IMG/VR virus record: IMGVR_UViG_3300042298_002501
Location: 1 to 40,679 of that record
Length of the DNA: 40,679 bases
Origin: a virus
Strand: one strand, 5' to 3'
Position numbers and translations under genes: made by a program. The notes beneath the pieces are model-generated. The model did no database searches and was not told the origin of the DNA. It saw only the letters and a list, made by a program, of their open reading frames with translations. Shown here piece after piece: positions 5,259 to 22,886 of the stretch (position 1 is its first letter; each line of letters opens with the position of its first letter).

Positions 5259-5873
5259 CTAGGCCGTAATTTCCGATGCCGGAACAGTACGGAGCTTTTC
5301 TGGATTATTCACGTTACGGAGAGTAACTTGATCTCCGTCACGAGACACTACATGGTACTTGCCGCCCATGTATTCAACGATGTCAGACTTAACTGAGTCT
5401 GGTGCATCACAAGCAAAGCACTTGCACTCTGCTCGACCTTTGTAGCCTTCCTTGACTTCAAAGGTAACATAGTGCGGAGTGTTAAGCAGATCCTGAGCCA
5501 GTTCATCAATGCTTTGATGAGACTCACGGACTTCACGGGACAAGCCCATGTCTTCGAGATCGTCGAGACAGATAGCCATTCGACCAGCTGCATCCATCTT
5601 TTCCGAGTCATAAAGACTATGGATAGCTCCAGTGAACTTCTTGCCACGATATTCTTCAGGTTCAATAACCTCAATTTCAACAGCGATGTAGGGGTTGCCT
5701 TCACTACCTTTAGCCTTATCTGCTTTGAAGTCAACAATCAATGCCTTACCCGCAGTTCCTTTGGGGACAGGAATACCTCGGACTTGCTTTTCTGCCGTCT
5801 TGGCAGTTTCAAAAGCACGAGCCTTTTGGGTATAGAACTTGCTGAAATCGCTGGAAACTTTTGACTTACTCAT
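5259..5873 (-). CDS. DUF669-like recombination-associated protein
   Basis: This 204-residue soluble protein opens with a Lys/Ser-rich segment and has a beta-rich core (GKALIVDFKAD, NPYIAVEIEVIEPEEYRGK). It also has CKCFACD and a C-terminal SH3-like strand pattern. It matches the usual phage layout in which a DUF669-type protein, thought to act with single-stranded DNA, follows a Sak4-like ATPase. The CxCxxC motif may bind metal. The start at 5873 has GAGAG upstream. The gene is separated from the ATPase by 42 bases and followed by a terminator, so it closes the recombination transcript. Confidence 0.6.
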   Translation of the reverse strand: MSKSKVSSDFSKFYTQKARAFETAKTAEKQVRGIPVPKGTAGKALIVDFKADKAKGSEGNPYIAVEIEVIEPEEYRGKKFTGAIHSLYDSEKMDAAGRMAICLDDLEDMGLSREVRESHQSIDELAQDLLNTPHYVTFEVKEGYKGRAECKCFACDAPDSVKSDIVEYMGGKYHVVSRDGDQVTLRNVNNPEKLRTVPASEITA

Positions 5874-5915: not shown

Positions 5916-6698
5916 TTATTTAGATAACATTTCCTTGAAGTTTTGGGGAAGGGCTGCCAAAAAGTTTGCATATGCTTCTTCTTCGCTGTCTCCTGCACTA
6001 ATGTAAGGGGGAAGGTTTAGTTTGTTCTTTGCTGAGTGAACTAAAGATTGTCCAGTGAAGATCATTCTATAATCTTCATCTTTCATCTTCGCTTCAATAG
6101 GTTTCTTTTGATTCTTGTTACCAATAAATTTGGTGTATCGTTCTACATTGGAATCAACACAAAGGTACAAGATGGATTGTGCCCATCTTTTAAATACATC
6201 ACGAATACCTTTATCGGCATCGAGGTCAATTGTATCGTAGTCCACACCCCTTGGGTTCTTTACCTTTTCCTGGGTGGAGTGGGCTATGAGTATAACATTC
6301 TTGCCTTGGGTTCGTAGGTTCTCAAAGACCGTGCATAATTCTTCAGCGTACTTTGGTGCTTGGGTTCTTGGGCCTTTGAAGTACGAGTAGAATTCTTCGG
6401 CGTCTCCTTCATAGTCCTTTTCGATGCTGTATTGGAAGATAGAGTTTTGTAGTCCGTGGAGACTATCAATTACAAGGGTCTTTTCCGTGGCACGAGAAAG
6501 ACAAATCTTAACTTCTTGGTAGGATTCAGCGTCAATGTTGACGCAACCTTCTGGTACTTTACCTATGTCATCTAGGTCAACGTATCCTGCTTCTGGTTTG
6601 AGGGTGATACATTTCAGGGGTTTGGAAAATTGTAAGGCAAAGCTCGTTTTGCCTACACCAGATTGTCCATACAATATAATTCCTACTCCACGTGGCAT
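5916..6698 (-). CDS. Sak4-like AAA/RecA-type ATPase
   Basis: A P-loop ATPase of 260 residues with Walker A GQSGVGKT at residues 11-18, Walker B TLVIDS at about 74-79 and a sensor-like ILIAHS near 136. This pattern fits the AAA_24/Sak4 group of phage recombination ATPases, which work with single-strand annealing or SSB-like proteins. The start overlaps the nuclease stop as TAATG, and GAGGAA lies 11 bases upstream. It sits between a PD-(D/E)XK nuclease and a DUF669-like gene, the standard phage recombination cassette. Confidence 0.85.
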   Translation of the reverse strand: MPRGVGIILYGQSGVGKTSFALQFSKPLKCITLKPEAGYVDLDDIGKVPEGCVNIDAESYQEVKICLSRATEKTLVIDSLHGLQNSIFQYSIEKDYEGDAEEFYSYFKGPRTQAPKYAEELCTVFENLRTQGKNVILIAHSTQEKVKNPRGVDYDTIDLDADKGIRDVFKRWAQSILYLCVDSNVERYTKFIGNKNQKKPIEAKMKDEDYRMIFTGQSLVHSAKNKLNLPPYISAGDSEEEAYANFLAALPQNFKEMLSK

Positions 6699-7738
6699 TA
6701 TTCAAGTTCCTCGAAGAAGTTTTCTTTGATTGGGAGATTTTCTATGCCGTCAATACCGACAAGAACGTTATACATTTTACGTTTGAAACTGTCAGTAGCA
6801 GATGGCATAAAGGTTCGTAAAGGGAAGCGATAAAAAGTTGAATTGTAACATGCTGGGTTACAAATATCAAATTTTGGATCGGTTACATATTCATACCACT
6901 CGTGCATACGATGTAGGAGAGGTATGAAAGTTTGATACCAAAAATTATTAACATCTTCGTCACTTATGTTAATTGGTTGTTGGCTAACCCAATTTTGTCT
7001 ATACTGATGGATTGGTAATGTTGCTTTAGCCCCATTATGTCCATAGTATATTTGATTGGTGAAATCTTCCTTACTTTGTTTTAGTCGTCGAGTAGGGAGG
7101 ACCCACGGCTTTTGTGCTTCTGGAATTAGGATTAGGTCGTAGTGTACCAGCCTCGGCCCATATATTCCAGCGTATAGCATTGTTTGTGTATCAAGTTTTA
7201 ACTCGTATTTGAGGGTCTCTGGTTTGATATATCCTTTGCACTTATGTTCTGCCATACTTTCCCATGAGGCAGATAATCCATCCAGTTTACCACGAAGGCG
7301 AAATGGAAGTGAGCATTTGAACTGTGTGTCCCATATGTTAATGTCAAATTTGACTTCAGTTTTCCATTTTTCTTCTCCCAGGTAAGATAATGAGTATTGA
7401 TTAAGCATGTTGACCAGGCTTGATTCAATGTCAATATCTTTGTGAGAAATTGGTGGATGTTCTTTGAGTCGAGCAAGCATCTTTGGAACTGCAACTTGTA
7501 TGTCACGAGTTTCAATTAGATGCTCAAGACCAACGTGAAATGAGTCACCCCAAATTAGATTGAAGTAAGGGGTTCCTGGTTCAGGTGTCTCTCTGGGTTC
7601 GTCCAGGCCTAAAACTAGGCTCAGGTAGGCCGTGTACGGGTCTTGTATCCATTCGTTGAGGAGACTCTGGCTTACTCCGTCTACTATTGGTCCCTTCCAT
7701 TTTGGAGGCTTCGACCTTAGCTCTGTTAATAGTGACAT
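6698..7738 (-). CDS. PD-(D/E)XK nuclease (RecB/Cas4-like exonuclease)
   Basis: Typical features of the PDDEXK_1 family are present: VSQSLLNEWIQDPYTAYL near the N-terminus, GDSFHVGLEHL, then LRGKLDG (Asp about 153), AEHKCK (Glu about 164, Lys about 166) and DTQTMLYA. Three C-terminal Cys include the pair in CNPACY. Such enzymes resect DNA ends in phage recombination, next to Sak4 and SSB-like proteins as here. The start could be ATG 7738 or TTG 7759; the TTG has the better upstream site (GAGG). Either start lies inside the CsrA-like gene, so the first dozen codons are read in two frames. Confidence 0.85.
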   Translation of the reverse strand: MSLLTELRSKPPKWKGPIVDGVSQSLLNEWIQDPYTAYLSLVLGLDEPRETPEPGTPYFNLIWGDSFHVGLEHLIETRDIQVAVPKMLARLKEHPPISHKDIDIESSLVNMLNQYSLSYLGEEKWKTEVKFDINIWDTQFKCSLPFRLRGKLDGLSASWESMAEHKCKGYIKPETLKYELKLDTQTMLYAGIYGPRLVHYDLILIPEAQKPWVLPTRRLKQSKEDFTNQIYYGHNGAKATLPIHQYRQNWVSQQPINISDEDVNNFWYQTFIPLLHRMHEWYEYVTDPKFDICNPACYNSTFYRFPLRTFMPSATDSFKRKMYNVLVGIDGIENLPIKENFFEELE

Positions 7739-7958
7739 CTCGTGGGGCTGAAAGTCCAAAGCTACTACCTCGGGCTGAAAATTTGAGTAAGGAACATTTA
7801 ATGTTTGGTGCTAGCTCAACATTCTCTTTCAAGTTGAGGAGATAACGCCTAGTTTCATATTCGACTACTGCAAATTTTGGTCGAATAACTAATACTTCTA
7901 AAACCGATTCGTGGTTAATGATGACCTTGTGTGTTTGCCTTAGTGTTAGACAGAGCAT
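7581..7958 (-). CDS. CsrA-like translational regulator with an internal insertion
   Basis: The N-terminus MLCLTLRQTHKVIINHES is followed by VLEVLVI, matching the first strands of CsrA. Residues 67-79, FGLSAPRDVTINR, match the family end motif (LGIxAPxxVxxxR), including the RNA-contacting Arg. Between them lie about 30 extra residues not found in ordinary CsrA of about 60-70 residues. CsrA homodimers bind GGA in mRNA leaders and block or alter translation. The ATG at 7958 has AAGG 9 bases upstream. The 3' half overlaps the nuclease gene in another frame; residues after about 86 are probably an unconstrained tail. Arg6 of E. coli CsrA is Leu here, but Arg7 is kept. Confidence 0.65.
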   Translation of the reverse strand: MLCLTLRQTHKVIINHESVLEVLVIRPKFAVVEYETRRYLLNLKENVELAPNIKCSLLKFSARGSSFGLSAPRDVTINRAKVEASKMEGTNSRRSKPESPQRMDTRPVHGLPEPSFRPGRTQRDT

Positions 7959-8457
7959 GTAAAAACCTTGAAAGTAAAAGGGCTTGTTCTTTTACGGAGT
8001 ATAGGGGATATTCCATCACAATAATCGATGAAATACTGGACATCGTATGGGTTGGTAATTTTGTTTTATACTTCTTTGCTTTATCTCCTATGAATACAAT
8101 TGCTTGAGGTTTGTAGTAAATAATTAGTTCGTTGAGTTTAGGCTTGCAAGCCTCTATCTCCTGGGGTGTGGGTAGTTCGCCGTAGCAGGATACTAGGTGC
8201 GTTATGCAAAAGCTGTGTGGTACGGTGACTTTATTGAATATGATGTTTAAGAATCTGCCTGTTTCTCCAATGAAAGGAAGTCTTGCAATATCGTCTGTGC
8301 TGCTTGGCGAATCTCCGATGTATAGGACTTTGGTGGCGGTGAGTTTGTCTCCAACATGTCCAACTCGTGAAAGCACAACTCCTCTTCGAGACTCACAGCG
8401 GGTGCAGTTGTTGCAGGAATTCCATCTTCCTTCTCCAATGTAAGTTGTATTAGGCAT
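7915..8457 (-). CDS. Uracil-DNA glycosylase, Fe-S (family 4-like)
   Basis: This 180-residue protein has the family 4/5 glycosylase pattern. It begins with a Cys cluster (C15, C18, C21), then KVLYIGDSPSSTDD and LPFIGETGRFLN, the uracil-pocket region. ITHLVSC and EIEAC supply the remaining cluster Cys (C91, C104). Such enzymes remove uracil from DNA and carry a 4Fe-4S cluster. The catalytic Glu/Asp position of motif 1 reads GDSPSSTDD rather than GExPGxxED, so substrate range may differ. The C-terminus overlaps the CsrA-like start, and the N-terminus overlaps the HTH gene by 211 bases. It probably repairs uracil in the phage genome, in line with ThyX. Confidence 0.8.
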   Translation of the reverse strand: MPNTTYIGEGRWNSCNNCTRCESRRGVVLSRVGHVGDKLTATKVLYIGDSPSSTDDIARLPFIGETGRFLNIIFNKVTVPHSFCITHLVSCYGELPTPQEIEACKPKLNELIIYYKPQAIVFIGDKAKKYKTKLPTHTMSSISSIIVMEYPLYSVKEQALLLSRFLHALSNTKANTQGHH

Positions 8458-13445: not shown

Positions 13446-13724
13446 TTACTTAGCTTGTCTACGGGCTATTCGTTTTGCACGAGTAGAAGCTTTTGAGAAA
13501 CCTGGTCGATTAGGAATTGGGTGATTTACCTGATTCCTTTTACGTCGTTGAGTCTGAGAATTGGGATTAAACTCGGAAACAATTGGTTTATGGGTTGGTC
13601 TAGGACCCATATGTCCGTGTTGGTCTCTTCCATGAATGGAAAGAGATAATTTACTAGGCACTTGATCACGAGGTAGAGTCGAACCAAGTAGATAAAGAGC
13701 AGACATGAGAGTGTTTGCGTTCAT
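13446..13724 (-). CDS. Basic hypothetical protein, 92 aa
   Basis: Strongly basic, rich in Arg, Asn, Pro and His, with a central GRDQHGHMGPRPTHKP and a C-terminal RAKRIARRQAK. It is likely disordered and may bind nucleic acid. TTAAGGAATTACT precedes the ATG, which overlaps the epimerase stop as ATGA. It is the last gene before the inverted-repeat element, so it ends the sugar-cassette transcript. The function is unknown. Confidence 0.6.
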   Translation of the reverse strand: MNANTLMSALYLLGSTLPRDQVPSKLSLSIHGRDQHGHMGPRPTHKPIVSEFNPNSQTQRRKRNQVNHPIPNRPGFSKASTRAKRIARRQAK

Positions 13725-14776
13725 AGTAATTCCTTAATGTATTGAGATGCTTTACCGTCACCAAAAGGACAATCAGAGTTGATTTCTGGATTGTCCACAA
13801 TTGCCTCAAAGTTGGCAAGGAGTAGTTCACTTGTTGGACATAGTAGGATATGTCCTGAATCTATCCCTTCTTGCCGCTCAGTGGTTTCCCTACATAATAG
13901 TACACGTTTTTGTAACCAGACTGCTTCTTCTTGTAACCCTCCGGAATCAGTAATGACGAAACGACAATGACGAAGATGACTAATAAGTTGTTGATGGGGA
14001 ACAGGATCGAAGAATAGTAATCGACTATTCTTAGGATAGTGTTTGGTAACTGCTGGGTTTGTATGTTTGTAAACAACAAACTCCAAATGATGATGATGGT
14101 CAGCTATGATGGATAAGGCCTGGAACCAATCATCAAGTTTATCCCAATTTTCTCTACGGTGTAAAGTAATTAGAACTGTATTTGAGTAACTGGTTGGAAG
14201 TGGATCGATTTCATCCAGTGTTGTACTCCCAACAACATGAACATCTTCACCAGTTAGGTTAGATGCAATTAGATGATGAATATTTTCAGCATCACTTTCA
14301 GTTGTGCAGAAGTGCTTTGTAGCAATCTGCGAGATCATCCGCCTGAAGCCTTCTTCTGGGAAGGGGTTGTATAGGTCGCTGGATCGCATACCAGCTTCTA
14401 CGTGATAGACCGGTATCTGATTTAAGAACCCGAATAGTGCTCCGCAAAAGGCTGAAGTTGTATCACCTTGGACAATGATAGTAAATTTGTCTAATAGGTT
14501 GAGTGCAATATGTTTGTTTATGTAGTCAAGTTTATGCTCTCGTCTTCCTTGGGTATACATGCGGCTAATTTCGCTTACAATCCAATTGATTTGGTTTTGC
14601 AATGAATCGTGTTGCCAGTTTTCGCAGTAGTATATTGCGACGTCTAGTCGGTTAAACTGGAGGGACAGGTTTGGTTGTTGGCAAGTGCAAATAACAATTG
14701 CATCTTCTACCTTTTCAATGACTGGCTTGAGTTTAATATACTCTGGCCTAGTTCCTATGATGAATATGTATTTCAT
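13721..14776 (-). CDS. wecB: UDP-N-acetylglucosamine 2-epimerase
   Basis: GTRPEYIKLKPV opens the protein, followed by IIVQGDTTSAF, HVEAGMRSSDLYNPFPEEGF, TLHRREN and ITDSGGLQEEA. These are the conserved blocks of non-hydrolysing UDP-GlcNAc 2-epimerases, which convert UDP-GlcNAc to UDP-ManNAc. The length (351 residues) is normal. ATG 14776 is chosen because it overlaps the upstream glycosyltransferase stop as ATGA and has AAGG at good spacing. It sits in a cassette with GT32- and GT8-like genes, suggesting ManNAc-containing glycan or a modified sugar made by the phage. The symbol is by family, not proven orthology. Confidence 0.9.
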   Translation of the reverse strand: MKYIFIIGTRPEYIKLKPVIEKVEDAIVICTCQQPNLSLQFNRLDVAIYYCENWQHDSLQNQINWIVSEISRMYTQGRREHKLDYINKHIALNLLDKFTIIVQGDTTSAFCGALFGFLNQIPVYHVEAGMRSSDLYNPFPEEGFRRMISQIATKHFCTTESDAENIHHLIASNLTGEDVHVVGSTTLDEIDPLPTSYSNTVLITLHRRENWDKLDDWFQALSIIADHHHHLEFVVYKHTNPAVTKHYPKNSRLLFFDPVPHQQLISHLRHCRFVITDSGGLQEEAVWLQKRVLLCRETTERQEGIDSGHILLCPTSELLLANFEAIVDNPEINSDCPFGDGKASQYIKELL

Positions 14777-15408
14777 TTCCATGATCCTTGGAAGTGGTGG
14801 ATGGCAACAGTTCTGGGACTCATAATAATTTTACGACGACGATGATCGTAAGGACAGAAAATGTCACTTGGATAAAGGACTCCGTTACCATGTAGGTAAA
14901 GGGTTTTATCTAGTGCTTGTTTCTTGACAAATAACTGAAGTAATTTAGTTAGGAACTTGGTATTTGGGATGGGTTGAAATTCATCAAGACAATCATAATA
15001 GTCTATGACGAGTTGACAAAAGGGGTGGTTTGGTACAGCTCCCATTGTTGCAGTGATTAGAACTTGTCCATTAACTTCTTGACCTGAGACAAAACTGTGT
15101 TGTCTATATGGATCAAGAGACTTGACAAGTTCAACATCAGCGTCTAATGAGAAACCACCATGAGTATACAGGAATCGAAATCGCCAATAGTCTGCGACAT
15201 AGGCCCATTTGCGTTGTTCCCGGGCTTGTCTGACAAAACGTGGTTCTGAGTCAAGAACATCAATGTAAGGGCTTAGTGAGGATACTAATTCGTCATTGAT
15301 TTCAATGATTTCGTAATTGAATCTTTGCCAAGATTCAATACAACGTTTAACTAGATCAGGTTTGGGGTTATTACCAAACCAACAGTAATGAATTTTGTTT
15401 GGGATCAT
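14773..15408 (-). CDS. GT32-like (DXD) glycosyltransferase
   Basis: The start MIPNKIHYCWFG, then WAYVADYWRFRFLYTHGG and LDADVELVKSLDP, matches the glycosyltransferase sugar-binding-region family (DXD motif, GT32-like). Asp89-Ala-Asp91 would bind a metal and the nucleotide sugar. At 211 residues it is a compact single domain without membrane segments. Its stop overlaps the epimerase start, and its start overlaps a small basic gene. It probably transfers a sugar from a nucleotide donor to an unknown acceptor (surface glycan, capsid or DNA). Confidence 0.88.
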   Translation of the reverse strand: MIPNKIHYCWFGNNPKPDLVKRCIESWQRFNYEIIEINDELVSSLSPYIDVLDSEPRFVRQAREQRKWAYVADYWRFRFLYTHGGFSLDADVELVKSLDPYRQHSFVSGQEVNGQVLITATMGAVPNHPFCQLVIDYYDCLDEFQPIPNTKFLTKLLQLFVKKQALDKTLYLHGNGVLYPSDIFCPYDHRRRKIIMSPRTVAIHHFQGSWK

Positions 15409-15644
15409 GATTTAGTTTTCAGATTCAAGTTTATTATTATTCGGTTCCATTTTTGGAGCATGTCTTTCAGGTATTTACTAAACCACTTTTTGTTTTGTTC
15501 TTTACCTTTTGTAAATAAAGAATAAATACGTTTTGTAGTATTTACTCTTGGAAGGTTTTTTGTATGTACTATTACCCAAAGTCGATATTGTATAAGTCCC
15601 CTTACTCTTTGGTACCACTCTTTATCGTATTTGATGATGTTCAT
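15405..15644 (-). CDS. Small basic hypothetical protein in the sugar cassette, 79 aa
   Basis: Rich in Lys, Arg, Trp and Tyr, with YQRVRGLIQYRLWVIVHTKN and KKWFSKYLKDMLQKWNR, so probably amphipathic helices. Both ends are coupled by ATGA overlaps to the flanking glycosyltransferase genes. No family recognised. The basic, aromatic surface would fit a membrane-peripheral or partner protein of the glycosyltransferases, which is only a guess. Confidence 0.6.
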   Translation of the reverse strand: MNIIKYDKEWYQRVRGLIQYRLWVIVHTKNLPRVNTTKRIYSLFTKGKEQNKKWFSKYLKDMLQKWNRIIINLNLKTKS

Positions 15645-16375
15645 AGTTGTTGAAACCTGTTATTCCATTCGGTCCAGTGGTGAGAGAGAGGAAGTTTATC
15701 AATCCAAGGATCTTTTATGCCAGCATAGTGGACGATAAAAGGATGGGAGATACGAGGTAAGGCGTTTATTGGGCAAGTTGATTGACAAAGATTGTAATGA
15801 ACTGGCAGAATTTGAATACAACCCTTACAAGTAAGGTTGAGTATGTCTTGGTCATTAGTTGGGAATGACCTAGATTTGGCTAGGTGAATGATTTTGTTTG
15901 GGTGTGCAAAACAAGGATGAGAGAAGTCCATGTATAACACACCGGCATTTACATAATCATTTTGGGGAGGTAACCCAATACGTTTCTTGTAAGAAGGTGT
16001 AATACCAATGTCTACTGCACCTGCCATAGCCATATTATCTTCTAGTTCGATATCTGGTATCTTGTTGACAACTATTGTGTCAGCGTCCAGATACAGCACC
16101 TTTTTTCCTGGGAGGAGTTGTGGTAACATAAGCCGGTACATGGTGGCTTGTGTGAATCGTCCATTAACATGCATCTTTGGGAAGGTGAAGGTGTTAATGA
16201 AGTGGATGGCTGTTCTTGGTTCTGTTTTGAGCAAGTCAGGAAGAATGGAGAGGTATGCTGTTTCGGAGCATACTAAGTAAACTTCTTCTACTTGTGGGTT
16301 GTTAGTAAGTAGAGCGTACAGTTGTGTTGGGATGTACTTTGCCCAGTTATCGGTAAAGCAATATGCGACTATCAT
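15641..16375 (-). CDS. GT8-family glycosyltransferase
   Basis: MIVAYCFTDNWAKYIPTQLY at the start, KVLYLDADTIVV with DAD at residues 97-99, DYVNAGVLYMDF, NDQDILNLTC and a final HYAG...PW pattern are the hallmarks of GT8. This family is retaining, Mn-dependent and uses UDP-sugars (glycogenin/LPS galactosyl type). ATG 16375 overlaps the upstream stop as ATGA and has GGAAATTCTC before it. At 244 residues it is a minimal GT8 domain. It is co-transcribed with the GT32-like and epimerase genes. Confidence 0.92.
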   Translation of the reverse strand: MIVAYCFTDNWAKYIPTQLYALLTNNPQVEEVYLVCSETAYLSILPDLLKTEPRTAIHFINTFTFPKMHVNGRFTQATMYRLMLPQLLPGKKVLYLDADTIVVNKIPDIELEDNMAMAGAVDIGITPSYKKRIGLPPQNDYVNAGVLYMDFSHPCFAHPNKIIHLAKSRSFPTNDQDILNLTCKGCIQILPVHYNLCQSTCPINALPRISHPFIVHYAGIKDPWIDKLPLSHHWTEWNNRFQQL

Positions 16376-16743
16376 GAGAATTTCCATTCGAGGTTATGAG
16401 AAGTGGCGAGGTTTTTTAGTTCTTTCTTCCAATCGGAGACAGGCCTCTTATCGTGAATTGATTGTAATTCCCGGATAAAGTATCGGAATTTATCAGGAAC
16501 TAATTCTTTTTCTACAAGTGCATTCCAGGTTCCTGTTTCCATAGTAGACGAATAATGTTCATCAGGGATAAGGATCCCAGCTGCACATTTGCAATCATCA
16601 ATGCCGCGATAAGCACAGATTCCATCTACATAGTCTATGTGAGCATATGGTTTTAGCAGTGACTTTTTGTTTTGAGTAAGTAGGTGGTTAGCTACTATGT
16701 CAAAAACTTCTTGTTCAGTTGCTGGTAGTTCAAAGAGTGTCAT
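16372..16743 (-). CDS. Hypothetical protein, copy 2 of a tandem duplication
   Basis: This 123-residue protein is clearly paralogous to the adjacent gene at 16730-17101. Both start MTxFELPxTEQE, share FDIVANHLLTQ, a CxYRG segment, KCAAGILIPDEHYS, ELQSIHD and end EWKFS. The middle Cys-containing loop resembles a family of bacterial/phage unknowns with C(A/V)xGxLIPDxxY. The function is unknown. Its start lies inside the end of its twin, so the two are co-translated; its end is coupled to the GT8 gene. Confidence 0.7.
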   Translation of the reverse strand: MTLFELPATEQEVFDIVANHLLTQNKKSLLKPYAHIDYVDGICAYRGIDDCKCAAGILIPDEHYSSTMETGTWNALVEKELVPDKFRYFIRELQSIHDKRPVSDWKKELKNLATSHNLEWKFS

Positions 16744-17101
16744 TAGAGAATTTCCATTCGAGTTTTTGGGTTTTGGCTAGTTCTTCTAGTTTTTCTTTCC
16801 AACGAATAGGCTTGTGCATATCGTGGATGGATTGTAGTTCTGAAATTAGAAAGGCAAATCTATAAGGGGCAAAACCTTTTTCTACTAATTTTAGCCAGGA
16901 ATGTTCTTCTAATTTTTTAGAATAATGTTCATCGGGGATGAGGATACCTGCTGCACATTTGGTGTTTTTTGTTCCACGGTAAACACATTGCTCATCACCA
17001 AACTTATCTAATCTTAATGATTGTGTTCCTTGAGTTAGTAGATGATTGGCAACTATGTCAAAAATTTCTTGTTCAGTTGACGGTAATTCAAAGGGGGTCA
17101 T
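16730..17101 (-). CDS. Hypothetical protein, copy 1 of a tandem duplication
   Basis: This 123-residue protein is the twin of 16372-16743, with roughly half its residues identical by eye. The same blocks are conserved: FDIVANHLLTQ, CVYRG, KCAAGILIPDEHYS and ELQSIHD. AAGGACAACC directly precedes the ATG at 17101; the longer frame is not supported. The tandem copy with moderate divergence suggests a retained, perhaps specialised, duplication. The function is unknown. Confidence 0.7.
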   Translation of the reverse strand: MTPFELPSTEQEIFDIVANHLLTQGTQSLRLDKFGDEQCVYRGTKNTKCAAGILIPDEHYSKKLEEHSWLKLVEKGFAPYRFAFLISELQSIHDMHKPIRWKEKLEELAKTQKLEWKFSNDTL

Positions 17102-17468
17102 GGTTGTCCTTAGAGAATGGTGTCCAAAGTTTGTTAAGATGTTCCCATCTTGTTTTGAGGAATGTTTCAACTTCTGGTAGTTCTTGTTCTGTAACGTCAA
17201 TAGTTACAAAACAATAATGTCCTTTTCTTTGAAGGACATAGAATAGAGTAAGGAGTAAATACTTTTTTACACCTATGGAAAAATCCATAATTATTTTTTC
17301 TTCAAGATCGAACCTAAATAGTAGGTTCCAATCTTTATTTTCATCGATACGAGTTTCTTTGAAGGATTTCCAAGTGGGATAATGTTCTGAGTATACTTCC
17401 GGTTCATCAGGACTTGCAAGATAGTTTTGCTTTTTGCAATAGAAGGGATGATTTGTTACTTTTAACAT
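17088..17468 (-). CDS. Hypothetical protein, 126 aa
   Basis: Soluble, mixed structure, with FRFDLEEKIIMDFSIGVKKY and a hydrophobic stretch LLLTLFYVLQRK too short to call a membrane segment firmly. The start ATG 17468 has CTAAGGACAACC before it, identical in form to the next gene's site. Its end overlaps the duplicated gene. No family recognised. Confidence 0.65.
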   Translation of the reverse strand: MLKVTNHPFYCKKQNYLASPDEPEVYSEHYPTWKSFKETRIDENKDWNLLFRFDLEEKIIMDFSIGVKKYLLLTLFYVLQRKGHYCFVTIDVTEQELPEVETFLKTRWEHLNKLWTPFSKDNHDPL

Positions 17469-18701: not shown

Positions 18702-18945
18702 TGCACAACCTAGGCAAGATGGGTAGTGTACACAAGCTAGGCAAGGCTGGCAGGATGGGGCGACTAGGCAAGCTAGATAAGATAAGCAAGCTAGGTAAGA
18801 TAGGCTAACTAGCTAGGATAGGCAAGGTGGGGTAGGTAGGCAAGCTAGGTTAACTAGTTGGGATAGGTAAGCTAGTCAAGATGGGGCGACTAGATAAGAT
18901 AGGTGAGCTAGGCCAAGTAGATAAGATAGGCAAGATAGCCTTGGC
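18702..18945. repeat. Degenerate TAGGCAAG octamer array
   Basis: Within about 240 bases the plus strand carries at least six TAGGCAAG and several variants (TAGATAAG three times, TAGGTAAG twice, TAGTCAAG, TAAGCAAG). All are in the same direction at irregular spacings of roughly 8-25 bases. GATGGGGCGACTAG occurs twice, showing partial duplication. The regular core and the fixed direction suggest a binding array or remnants of slippage. Confidence 0.7.
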
Positions 18946-18982
18946 CTAGTGTACAAAGATAACCTAGTGAACGGGTTGACAC

Positions 18983-19136
18983 CTATAAAGAAAAATCTAA
19001 CTATAAGAAAAATCTAACTATAAGAAAAATCTAATAGTAAGAAAAATCTAATAGTAAGAAAAATCTTATTATAAGAAAAATCTAACTATAAGAAAAATCT
19101 AACTATAAGAAAAATCTAATAGTAAGAAAAATCATA
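18983..19136. repeat. 17-bp tandem (iteron-like) repeats, nine copies
   Basis: Nine head-to-tail copies of a 17-bp unit, consensus CTATAAGAAAAATCTAA, with variants beginning TAG or TTA. The first copy is 18 bp and the last is degenerate at its end. Length and arrangement match plasmid iterons, which bind a replication initiator or partition protein. It lies just past the terminator of the ParB-like gene. Confidence 0.85.
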
Positions 19137-19140
19137 TAAC

Positions 19141-21679: not shown

Positions 21680-22022
21680 TATCGTTTTCCGTTTCGTTTC
21701 GTTTCGTCGTTTCGTCCTGACACAACGAACTATATCGGGAGGGCAAGGGTTTCCGCGATAGGGGATAGTCCAAAATAATCCCGAAAACACGTTTTGACCC
21801 GTATTTTACGGGCTAAAAAACTTTTCAAGAATTTTCCGATTTTAGTTTCTGGACACTTAGTTTTTGGGCGACCCCAAAGTTAAGGGGGTGGATTCTACCC
21901 TTAAACCGGAGTTAACGGGAATAACCCCGCCGTAGGGCCTATTCGGCAGGGGGTTGACTACGGGGTCGGGGGGTTTCCTTATATATTATAGGGGGGATAG
22001 TGTACGGTTGTAACCTAGTGCC

Positions 22023-22208
22023 GTTGTCGGTCAATATACGACAAAGTTATCGTGAATTGAAAAGCATGAATTGAAAAGCATGAATTGAAAAGCATGAATT
22101 GAAAAGCATGAATTGAAAAGCATGAATTGAAAAGCATGAATTGAAAAGCATGAATTGAAAAGCATGAATTGGGGGACGCGACATGGTTGTCGGTAATTGA
22201 AAAGCATG
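22023..22208. repeat. 14-bp tandem array bracketed by GTTGTCGGT
   Basis: Eight perfect head-to-tail copies of GAATTGAAAAGCAT run from 22054 to 22165, followed by a partial copy and an isolated TAATTGAAAAGCATG at 22194-22208. The array is bracketed by direct repeats GTTGTCGGT at 22023-22031 and 22186-22194. Perfect copies point to recent amplification or strong constraint. The left bracket also forms a TTGTCG/CGACAA hairpin. Confidence 0.88.
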
Positions 22209-22278
22209 AAAAGCGAATCGGGGTAGGTGAGTGCAGGGACAGAGTGAAGTCACCCCCAAACCCCTCACATCCAGGCTC

Positions 22279-22447
22279 TACGTGAGGGAAATCTGAGATT
22301 GTTTTTTTTATATTTGGGTTAGCTACACGTGAAGGACTTTTGAGATTGTTTTTTTACACACGTGGGGGAATGATTAGATTGTTTTTTTACACACGTGAAA
22401 GAGATTAGAGATTGTTTTTTTTAGATGGGATTAGAGATTGTTTTTTG
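22279..22447. repeat. Degenerate ACGTG...AGATTGTTTTTT repeats
   Basis: Four and a half copies of a 30-45-base unit occur. Each has ACGTG plus a purine-rich stretch, then (G)AGATTGTTTTTT and often ACACACGTG. The T runs are six to eight bases long. The unit could be a protein-binding plus AT-rich unwinding module, or a set of terminators. It lies between the 14-bp array and the large hairpin. Confidence 0.7.
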
Positions 22448-22454
22448 AGGCACG

Positions 22455-22510
22455 CCAAAAACGACAACACCCTCCCAACAACGCAGCGAAGCGAAGTGGG
22501 AGGGGTCGTT
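22455..22510 (-). terminator. Large hairpin, probable end of the tail operon
   Basis: AACGAC (22460-22465) pairs with GTCGTT (22505-22510), and CCCTCCCA (22470-22477) with TGGGAGGG (22497-22504), around a GC-rich loop. On the minus strand the stem is followed by a T run (22460-22457 region). It would stop leftward transcription coming from the structural genes. It lies about 380 bases after the last stop, so it may instead be a structured origin element. Confidence 0.5.
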
Positions 22511-22647
22511 TGTGCCGTTATTCCTACTGGTCGCAAGTAGCTAAGGGGCTGTTCCCGAATAAGTTATATAAGCATTATTGCGAACGGATTAGAAAAGTCA
22601 AGTAAAAACGGAGATAATTTTAGAAAAGAAAAGTAGAAACGAATAAA

Positions 22648-22736
22648 CCCTAGTTATAAGCAAAATATAACTATTCACCCCCGGCATACACCATTTATGG
22701 GGAATGATAATAATTATACTTTACATATAACTAGGG
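22648..22736. repeat. Inverted-repeat element B with 21-base core
   Basis: Arms beginning CCCTAGTTATA (22648-22658) and ending TATAACTAGGG (22726-22736) extend inward as imperfect pairs. Inside, positions 22699-22719 are identical over 21 bases to the core of element A, but on the opposite strand. Flanking sequence also aligns with element A (TTATAxGCAxxxTATAAC on one side, CACC...ATAxACCAxTT before the core). It is the same type of element, about 9.3 kb from A and in inverted orientation. Confidence 0.8.
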
Positions 22737-22886
22737 TCTGTCGGATAGGGGGAAGTTATCCCCTATAATTCGATTCTAGGCACCTAGCTTGCTCTAGGAT
22801 GCGTGTTGATGGGTGGGTTTGGGTAATGAGTCAAGGGGTTAGAAAAGTGGCTCTATTAGACCAGTTTGTATAAGCTACATATAATA

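Follow-up and report, generated by a model that had tools for sequence, protein, structure and literature searches.

Does the short reading frame at 7958-7581 on the minus strand of this viral DNA encode a CsrA protein, and, if it does, what are the extra residues in the middle of its product? The window analyzed here is the whole stretch of 40,679 nucleotides (IMG/VR record IMGVR_UViG_3300042298_002501). An earlier note, made from the letters of the DNA, took the frame for a CsrA-like regulator with an insertion of about 30 residues that overlaps a nuclease gene. In canonical CsrA each RNA-binding surface pairs β1 of one monomer with β5 of the other, and L4 and R44 are critical for binding (PMC7652899); the peripheral strands of each sheet, β1 and β5, are contributed by the partner subunit (PMC7652899; strand order, PMC3791407). 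Genes for CsrA on phages and plasmids are already known (PMC7366521).

The reading frame and its limits

The frame encodes a protein of 125 amino acids that begins with MLCLTLR (opening sequence MLCLTLRQTHKVIINHESVLEVLVI) and carries FGLSAPRDVTINR at residues 67-79 (7760-7722). It lies among replication and recombination genes that are all on a single strand: a uracil-DNA glycosylase (UDG) gene, csrA, an exonuclease gene, and genes for a Sak4-like ATPase and an SSB. The relevant features are as follows.

5259-5873, minus strand: SSB-like protein, recombination module (phrog_9002, E=6e-8)
5916-6698, minus strand: Sak4-like AAA ATPase, recombination module (phrog_124, E=2e-23)
6698-7738, minus strand: PD-(D/E)XK exonuclease-like gene (LDGL..EHK..QTMLYA; weak phrog_1218 exonuclease match)
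7581-7958, minus strand: putative tandem (single-chain) csrA gene, 125 aa (open reading frame and translation, Pfam CsrA, tandem-CsrA profile)
7581-7700, minus strand: C-terminal tail, residues 87-125, in the other frame of the nuclease gene; codon-position signal absent
7707-7838, minus strand: C-terminal CsrA copy, residues ~41-84 (canonical 7-49, β2-β5; APRDVTINR)
7722-7748, minus strand: APRDVTINR motif, residues 71-79 (β4-β5 turn and β5; predicted RNA-binding Arg79)
7854-7958, minus strand: N-terminal CsrA copy, residues 1-35 (canonical 1-35, β1-β4; MLCLTLR with L4)
7915-8457, minus strand: uracil-DNA glycosylase gene (Pfam UDG, E=5.6e-14), overlapping the csrA start by 44 nt
7966-7969, minus strand: Shine-Dalgarno-like AAGG, 7 nt 5' of the csrA ATG (sequence)

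The frequency of G at third codon positions is 0.10 in residues 1-86 of csrA, against 0.11-0.12 in the neighboring genes, and 0.22 in residues 87-125, which is unlike the codon-position pattern of those genes. The relatives described below, from Pseudomonas phage vsMR and from Vibrio phages, stop at the last strand (β5) or just past it. Because the tail lacks the codon signal and the relatives end at or near β5, the conserved protein appears to comprise about 86 residues, and the 39-residue tail (87-125) is probably a run-on.

Similarity to CsrA and relatives in phages and plasmids

The Pfam CsrA model (PF02599) matched the whole window protein in two stretches with E=1.7e-5 and 25.1 bits, just below the curated cut-off of 27 bits. 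The better stretch places residues 44-84 on model positions 9-49 without a gap, and trimming the protein to 88 amino acids brings the score to 26.9 bits. PHROG 9500, annotated as a CsrA-like regulator, also matched (E=4e-4). The AP-x-x-V-x-V-x-R motif is present as APRDVTINR, with R79 equivalent to Arg44 in β5 of CsrA. The stretch that corresponds to the β1 sequence MLxLTRR reads MLCLTLR, with L4, T5 and R7 retained and R6 replaced by Leu; the LTR of β1 is retained in the vsMR and plasmid proteins.

A tblastn search aligned residues 1-82 with a 92-residue protein of Pseudomonas phage vsMR (29% identity, E=0.3), a match that is weak by itself. The vsMR protein led to relatives in 14 plasmid records (12 from Xanthomonas at ≥99% identity, one from X. 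citri at 78% and one from Stenotrophomonas at 91%), which are annotated as "carbon storage regulator" on the Xanthomonas plasmids. Two of these proteins, those of pXCV183 and of the X. citri plasmid plB, are compared below. An alignment search reached the viral contig L018, and this contig found eight Vibrio phage proteins with 65-86% identity, all annotated "hypothetical". The vsMR and pXCV183 proteins pass the PF02599 cut-off with 58.2 and 78.1 bits. On plB the tandem csrA immediately precedes a csrA of the ordinary kind (L019, 5001-5634), and plB has two copies of this gene pair. The 85-aa products of L022-L028 (Vibrio phages in the Nahant collection, and 209E38-1) are annotated "hypothetical" but belong with the tandem-type CsrA relatives, and their annotation, like that of similar proteins in cultured Vibrio phages, could be changed accordingly.

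Other searches gave less. Close relatives were not found among viral contigs with the window protein as the single query, and patterns with the tandem spacing had no matches in viral contigs or in 294 Planctomycetota genomes. A genome scan with vsMR peptides returned only ordinary planctomycete CsrA, and the portal, capsid and nuclease queries returned no useful phage kin. The csrA of Burkholderia phage DC1 was considered as a tandem relative and set aside as being of ordinary length, as were two Vibrio/Teredinibacter plasmid matches, which are ordinary CsrA. The planctomycete metagenome-assembled genome G001, which lies behind L003, has 12 csrA matches, an unusually large expansion of the family.

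A profile of four relatives, from which the window protein was excluded, matched residues 1-84 end to end with 29.3 bits, whereas the best-scoring of 2000 shuffled sequences reached 8.8 bits; the top of its list contained no other frame of the window. A profile dominated by Vibrio sequences scored 19.0 bits, and the highest value among 5000 shuffles was 15.3. These results bear on whether the frame is a spurious by-product of the overlapping nuclease and UDG genes. The overlaps on both sides and the tail without a coding signal would fit a spurious frame, but the full-length profile match far above the shuffles, the ribosome-binding site and the codon signal in residues 1-86 speak against it, as does the conservation of the architecture in other phages and plasmids. 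This explanation is hardly credible and can be considered largely refuted. Both the CsrA-like reading frame proposed in the earlier note and its kinship to the CsrA family are borne out; judged from its sequence, the 7958-7581 frame is real, coding in appearance and CsrA-related.

The eight Vibrio-type genes have an intact frame and constant length. Pairwise ω in this branch has a median of 0.14 (range 0.05-0.27, 27 pairs). Purifying selection thus indicates a functional protein in the Vibrio branch; it speaks for that branch and not directly for the window protein.

Two probable CsrA copies in one chain

In the CsrA family one chain holds one five-stranded copy of 60-75 residues. The window protein and its relatives hold two partial copies. 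The N-terminal halves of five members aligned by hhalign to positions 1-35 of canonical CsrA with a probability of 97%, and the C-terminal halves to positions 7-54 with 98.8%; the alignment of ordinary CsrA proteins included E. coli CsrA. Aligned to each other, the N- and C-terminal halves are in register, but weakly so (3%). The N copy is without β5 and the helix. The C copy is without the MLxLTRR strand and, across the members, spans canonical positions 7-54 (β2-β5, with the helix in some).

In vsMR the Pfam CsrA model matched twice, at positions 1-26 and then 5-48. A canonical model of seven ordinary CsrA proteins (among them E. coli CsrA and the first RsmE residues) placed the N and C copies at positions 1-25 and 7-54 in pXCV183, 1-30 and 7-54 in plB, 1-24 and 10-50 in vsMR, and 1-19 and 7-44 in L018. 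On the window protein it matched only at 1-20, which is not significant, and 30-48. The plasmid proteins and vsMR show strong homology of the N copy to CsrA and the Vibrio type a weak one (E=2.6e-4), and the N-terminal half of the window protein by itself gave a very weak CsrA match (E=0.013). The layout of an N copy equivalent to canonical 1-35, a C copy equivalent to 7-54 and complementary losses is found in the window protein by way of its relatives.

A different explanation is a single CsrA domain with a β-hairpin or linker between β2 and β3, similar to RsmN/RsmF except that strands are inserted, which would form a two-site homodimer. In its favor, the match to CsrA in the window and Vibrio proteins, taken by themselves, is confined to the initial ~20 residues and the C-terminal half, and RsmN demonstrates that an insert at β2/β3 can redirect the fold while two sites are kept (PMC3791407). 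AlphaFold did not settle the choice between a hairpin insertion and a tandem protein; pLDDT was 38 for the window protein alone and 48 with four relatives, and no usable model was obtained. The middle of the chain, however, is itself CsrA-like: model positions 7-25 occur twice in the plasmid proteins and positions 5-26 twice in vsMR, and the window protein aligns end to end with these tandem proteins. In RsmN the insert consists of a helix of 16 residues, and RsmN/RsmF match the C-terminal part only and more weakly than ordinary CsrA does. A single domain with a hairpin is thus unlikely, and an RsmN-type insertion was rejected as the main reading since the middle aligns to CsrA strands in the relatives. 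What the earlier note described as an insertion of ~30 residues is more plausibly the junction left by a tandem CsrA duplication, and the window protein a divergent member of the tandem-CsrA family, the assignment of its own N-terminal half resting on the relatives.

Nine or more Vibrio-type phage sequences have the tandem architecture, as do vsMR and the 14 Xanthomonas and Stenotrophomonas plasmids. It is not a one-off, because it recurs in these other phages and plasmids. All the members may derive from one event, in which case their shared losses are not independent proofs.

Residues of the predicted RNA sites

M1, L2, the A and P of the motif and the β5 Arg are invariant in 12 of 12 aligned members. 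Position 4 is L in ten of the 12 and I in the other two. The members are otherwise only 20-30% identical. The fused proteins retain one β1/β5 pair, consisting of the N-copy β1 with L4 and the C-copy β5 with its Arg. The elements of the second site, the β5 of the N copy and the MLxLTRR strand of the C copy, are absent.

An Arg-Glu salt bridge has been described for RsmA/RsmN (PMC3791407). The window protein has Leu6 and, at the position equivalent to Glu46 in our numbering, Lys81, so that both sides of the bridge are changed together. This joint change fits an arrangement in which the two strands face one another, and it is a single case.

Loss of Arg6 in the window protein, and of one full site in all members, could also mean that these proteins are degenerate and RNA-dead, acting as decoys for FliW- or CesT-like partners or as poisons that insert into host CsrA dimers; the plasmid CsrA RsmQ heterodimerizes with host Rsm proteins (PMC9928087). 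The retention of RNA-critical position 4 and the β5 Arg across members so divergent argues against RNA-dead proteins, and we regard this explanation as quite improbable.

The nuclease overlap and other features of the window

The exonuclease-like gene (tblastn to a PD-(D/E)XK nuclease, E=2e-3) has two candidate starts, both inside the csrA frame: the ATG at 7738, with no clear Shine-Dalgarno sequence, and an alternative TTG at 7759 with GAGG before it. The earlier note held that conserved residues of both proteins share DNA here. The ATG at 7738 does lie inside the CsrA motif, but nuclease similarity is recognizable only from residue 22 (~7675), after the CsrA core has come to its end near 7707. 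The shared DNA encodes CsrA β5 in one frame and a non-conserved nuclease N-terminus in the other. A run of ~38 stop-free codons in the other frame has a chance of about 1/6, estimated from 3 stops in 64 codons. The suggested link between nuclease levels and CsrA by way of conserved residues encoded in the same DNA is not upheld, since the overlap consists of the non-conserved nuclease N-terminus and a tail that is absent in the phage relatives. The overlap looks like ordinary gene packing; translational coupling of csrA and the nuclease gene is possible and not indicated.

Several other features were observed in the window. The gene-poor stretch at ~21790-22886 contains 8.5 perfect copies of the 14-mer TGAATTGAAAAGCA (22053-22171) and a 33-mer array (22325-22421), and these arrays are iteron- or origin-like. 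A 730-nt gap (18733-19137 region) contains 8.8 copies of the 17-mer CTATAAGAAAAATCTAA (18983-19133) and an imperfect 9/18-mer array of CAAGCTAGG (18733-18938). Genes for a UDP-GlcNAc 2-epimerase and then two glycosyltransferases (Gly_transf_sug, GT8) at 13721-16387 are a possible surface-sugar or glycosylation cassette. The adjacent genes at 16372-16743 and 16730-17200 encode paralogous small proteins that have 'MTxFELPxTEQExFDIVANHLLTQ' in common, a local gene duplication.

Discussion

Since the fused proteins keep exactly one β1/β5 pair, with the parts needed for a second site missing, we propose a one-chain, one-site CsrA. The two fused copies probably fold like a dimer and retain one RNA site. 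The architecture is visible in the sequence, whereas fold, monomeric state and RNA binding are predicted from it. The chain would fold on itself like the CsrA dimer, and the N-copy β1 would meet the C-copy β5 to give one intact GGA-binding surface, the opposite surface being gone. Such a protein would bind ANGGA sites singly, for instance one within a Shine-Dalgarno sequence, and would serve as a translational regulator or a competitor of host CsrA. It could not bridge two sites. In E. coli, the hfq mRNA has a single CsrA site over its Shine-Dalgarno sequence and glgC is a bridging target; a CsrA dimer with one mutated site does not bridge two sites and does not fully repress glgC (PMC7652899). 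Single-site targets like hfq would therefore suit the fused protein, and bridging targets such as glgC would not. Subunit exchange with host CsrA is not expected because the partner strands are built in, a point that we purely infer.

The tandem protein resembles canonical CsrA/RsmA/RsmE (PF02599) in its β1 MLxLT(R) and its AP-R-V-x-V-x-R motif, and recognition of GGA in a loop is presumed to be as in canonical CsrA. It differs in having two copies with complementary losses, one expected RNA site and no need for subunit swapping. RsmN/RsmF of P. aeruginosa (PMC3791407) is similar in having extra residues after β2 and an altered chain path. In RsmN these residues form a helix in a two-site homodimer, whereas in the tandem protein they are CsrA-like strands; the window protein has no 16-residue helical insert at β2/β3. 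Dimers of CsrA made in the laboratory, in which a single subunit carries R44A (Mercante et al. 2009, as presented in PMC7652899), likewise have one functional surface, and in both cases loss of bridging is expected; as presented there, those dimers are engineered and consist of two chains, whereas the tandem protein is natural and has one. Plasmid RsmQ and other csrA genes of mobile elements (PMC9928087, PMC7366521) are similar in being carried by mobile elements and can act on host regulation, but their products appear to be of ordinary length. RsmQ was modeled as a homodimer and pairs with host proteins, whereas the tandem protein is expected to be blind to host CsrA. No earlier description of a fused, tandem, monomeric or single-chain CsrA was found in the open-access papers searched. 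We rate the tandem CsrA as a variant of the known CsrA family that is apparently undescribed in the literature searched.

ANGGA occurs near 12 of 49 gene starts in the window and near 13% of random positions; the presence of Shine-Dalgarno sequences could be enough to account for the excess. Rfam gave no match to a CsrB-like sponge RNA in the window, and none of the window's intergenic gaps is strikingly ANGGA-rich. Reprogramming of host translation by the phage protein is possible.

More tentatively, the one-chain, one-site CsrA proteins of phages and conjugative plasmids may form a dedicated class, which would regulate GGA-bearing mRNAs, or block host CsrA at them, with neither two-site bridging nor mixing of subunits with the CsrA dimers of the host. 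CsrA is usually treated as a two-site dimer, and the need for bridging has, to our knowledge, been tested with engineered half-dead dimers. If the proposal is true, a natural one-site, one-chain CsrA on mobile elements would make the bridging question directly testable, and phages and plasmids would have a way to run a Csr-type regulator beside that of the host without forming mixed dimers.
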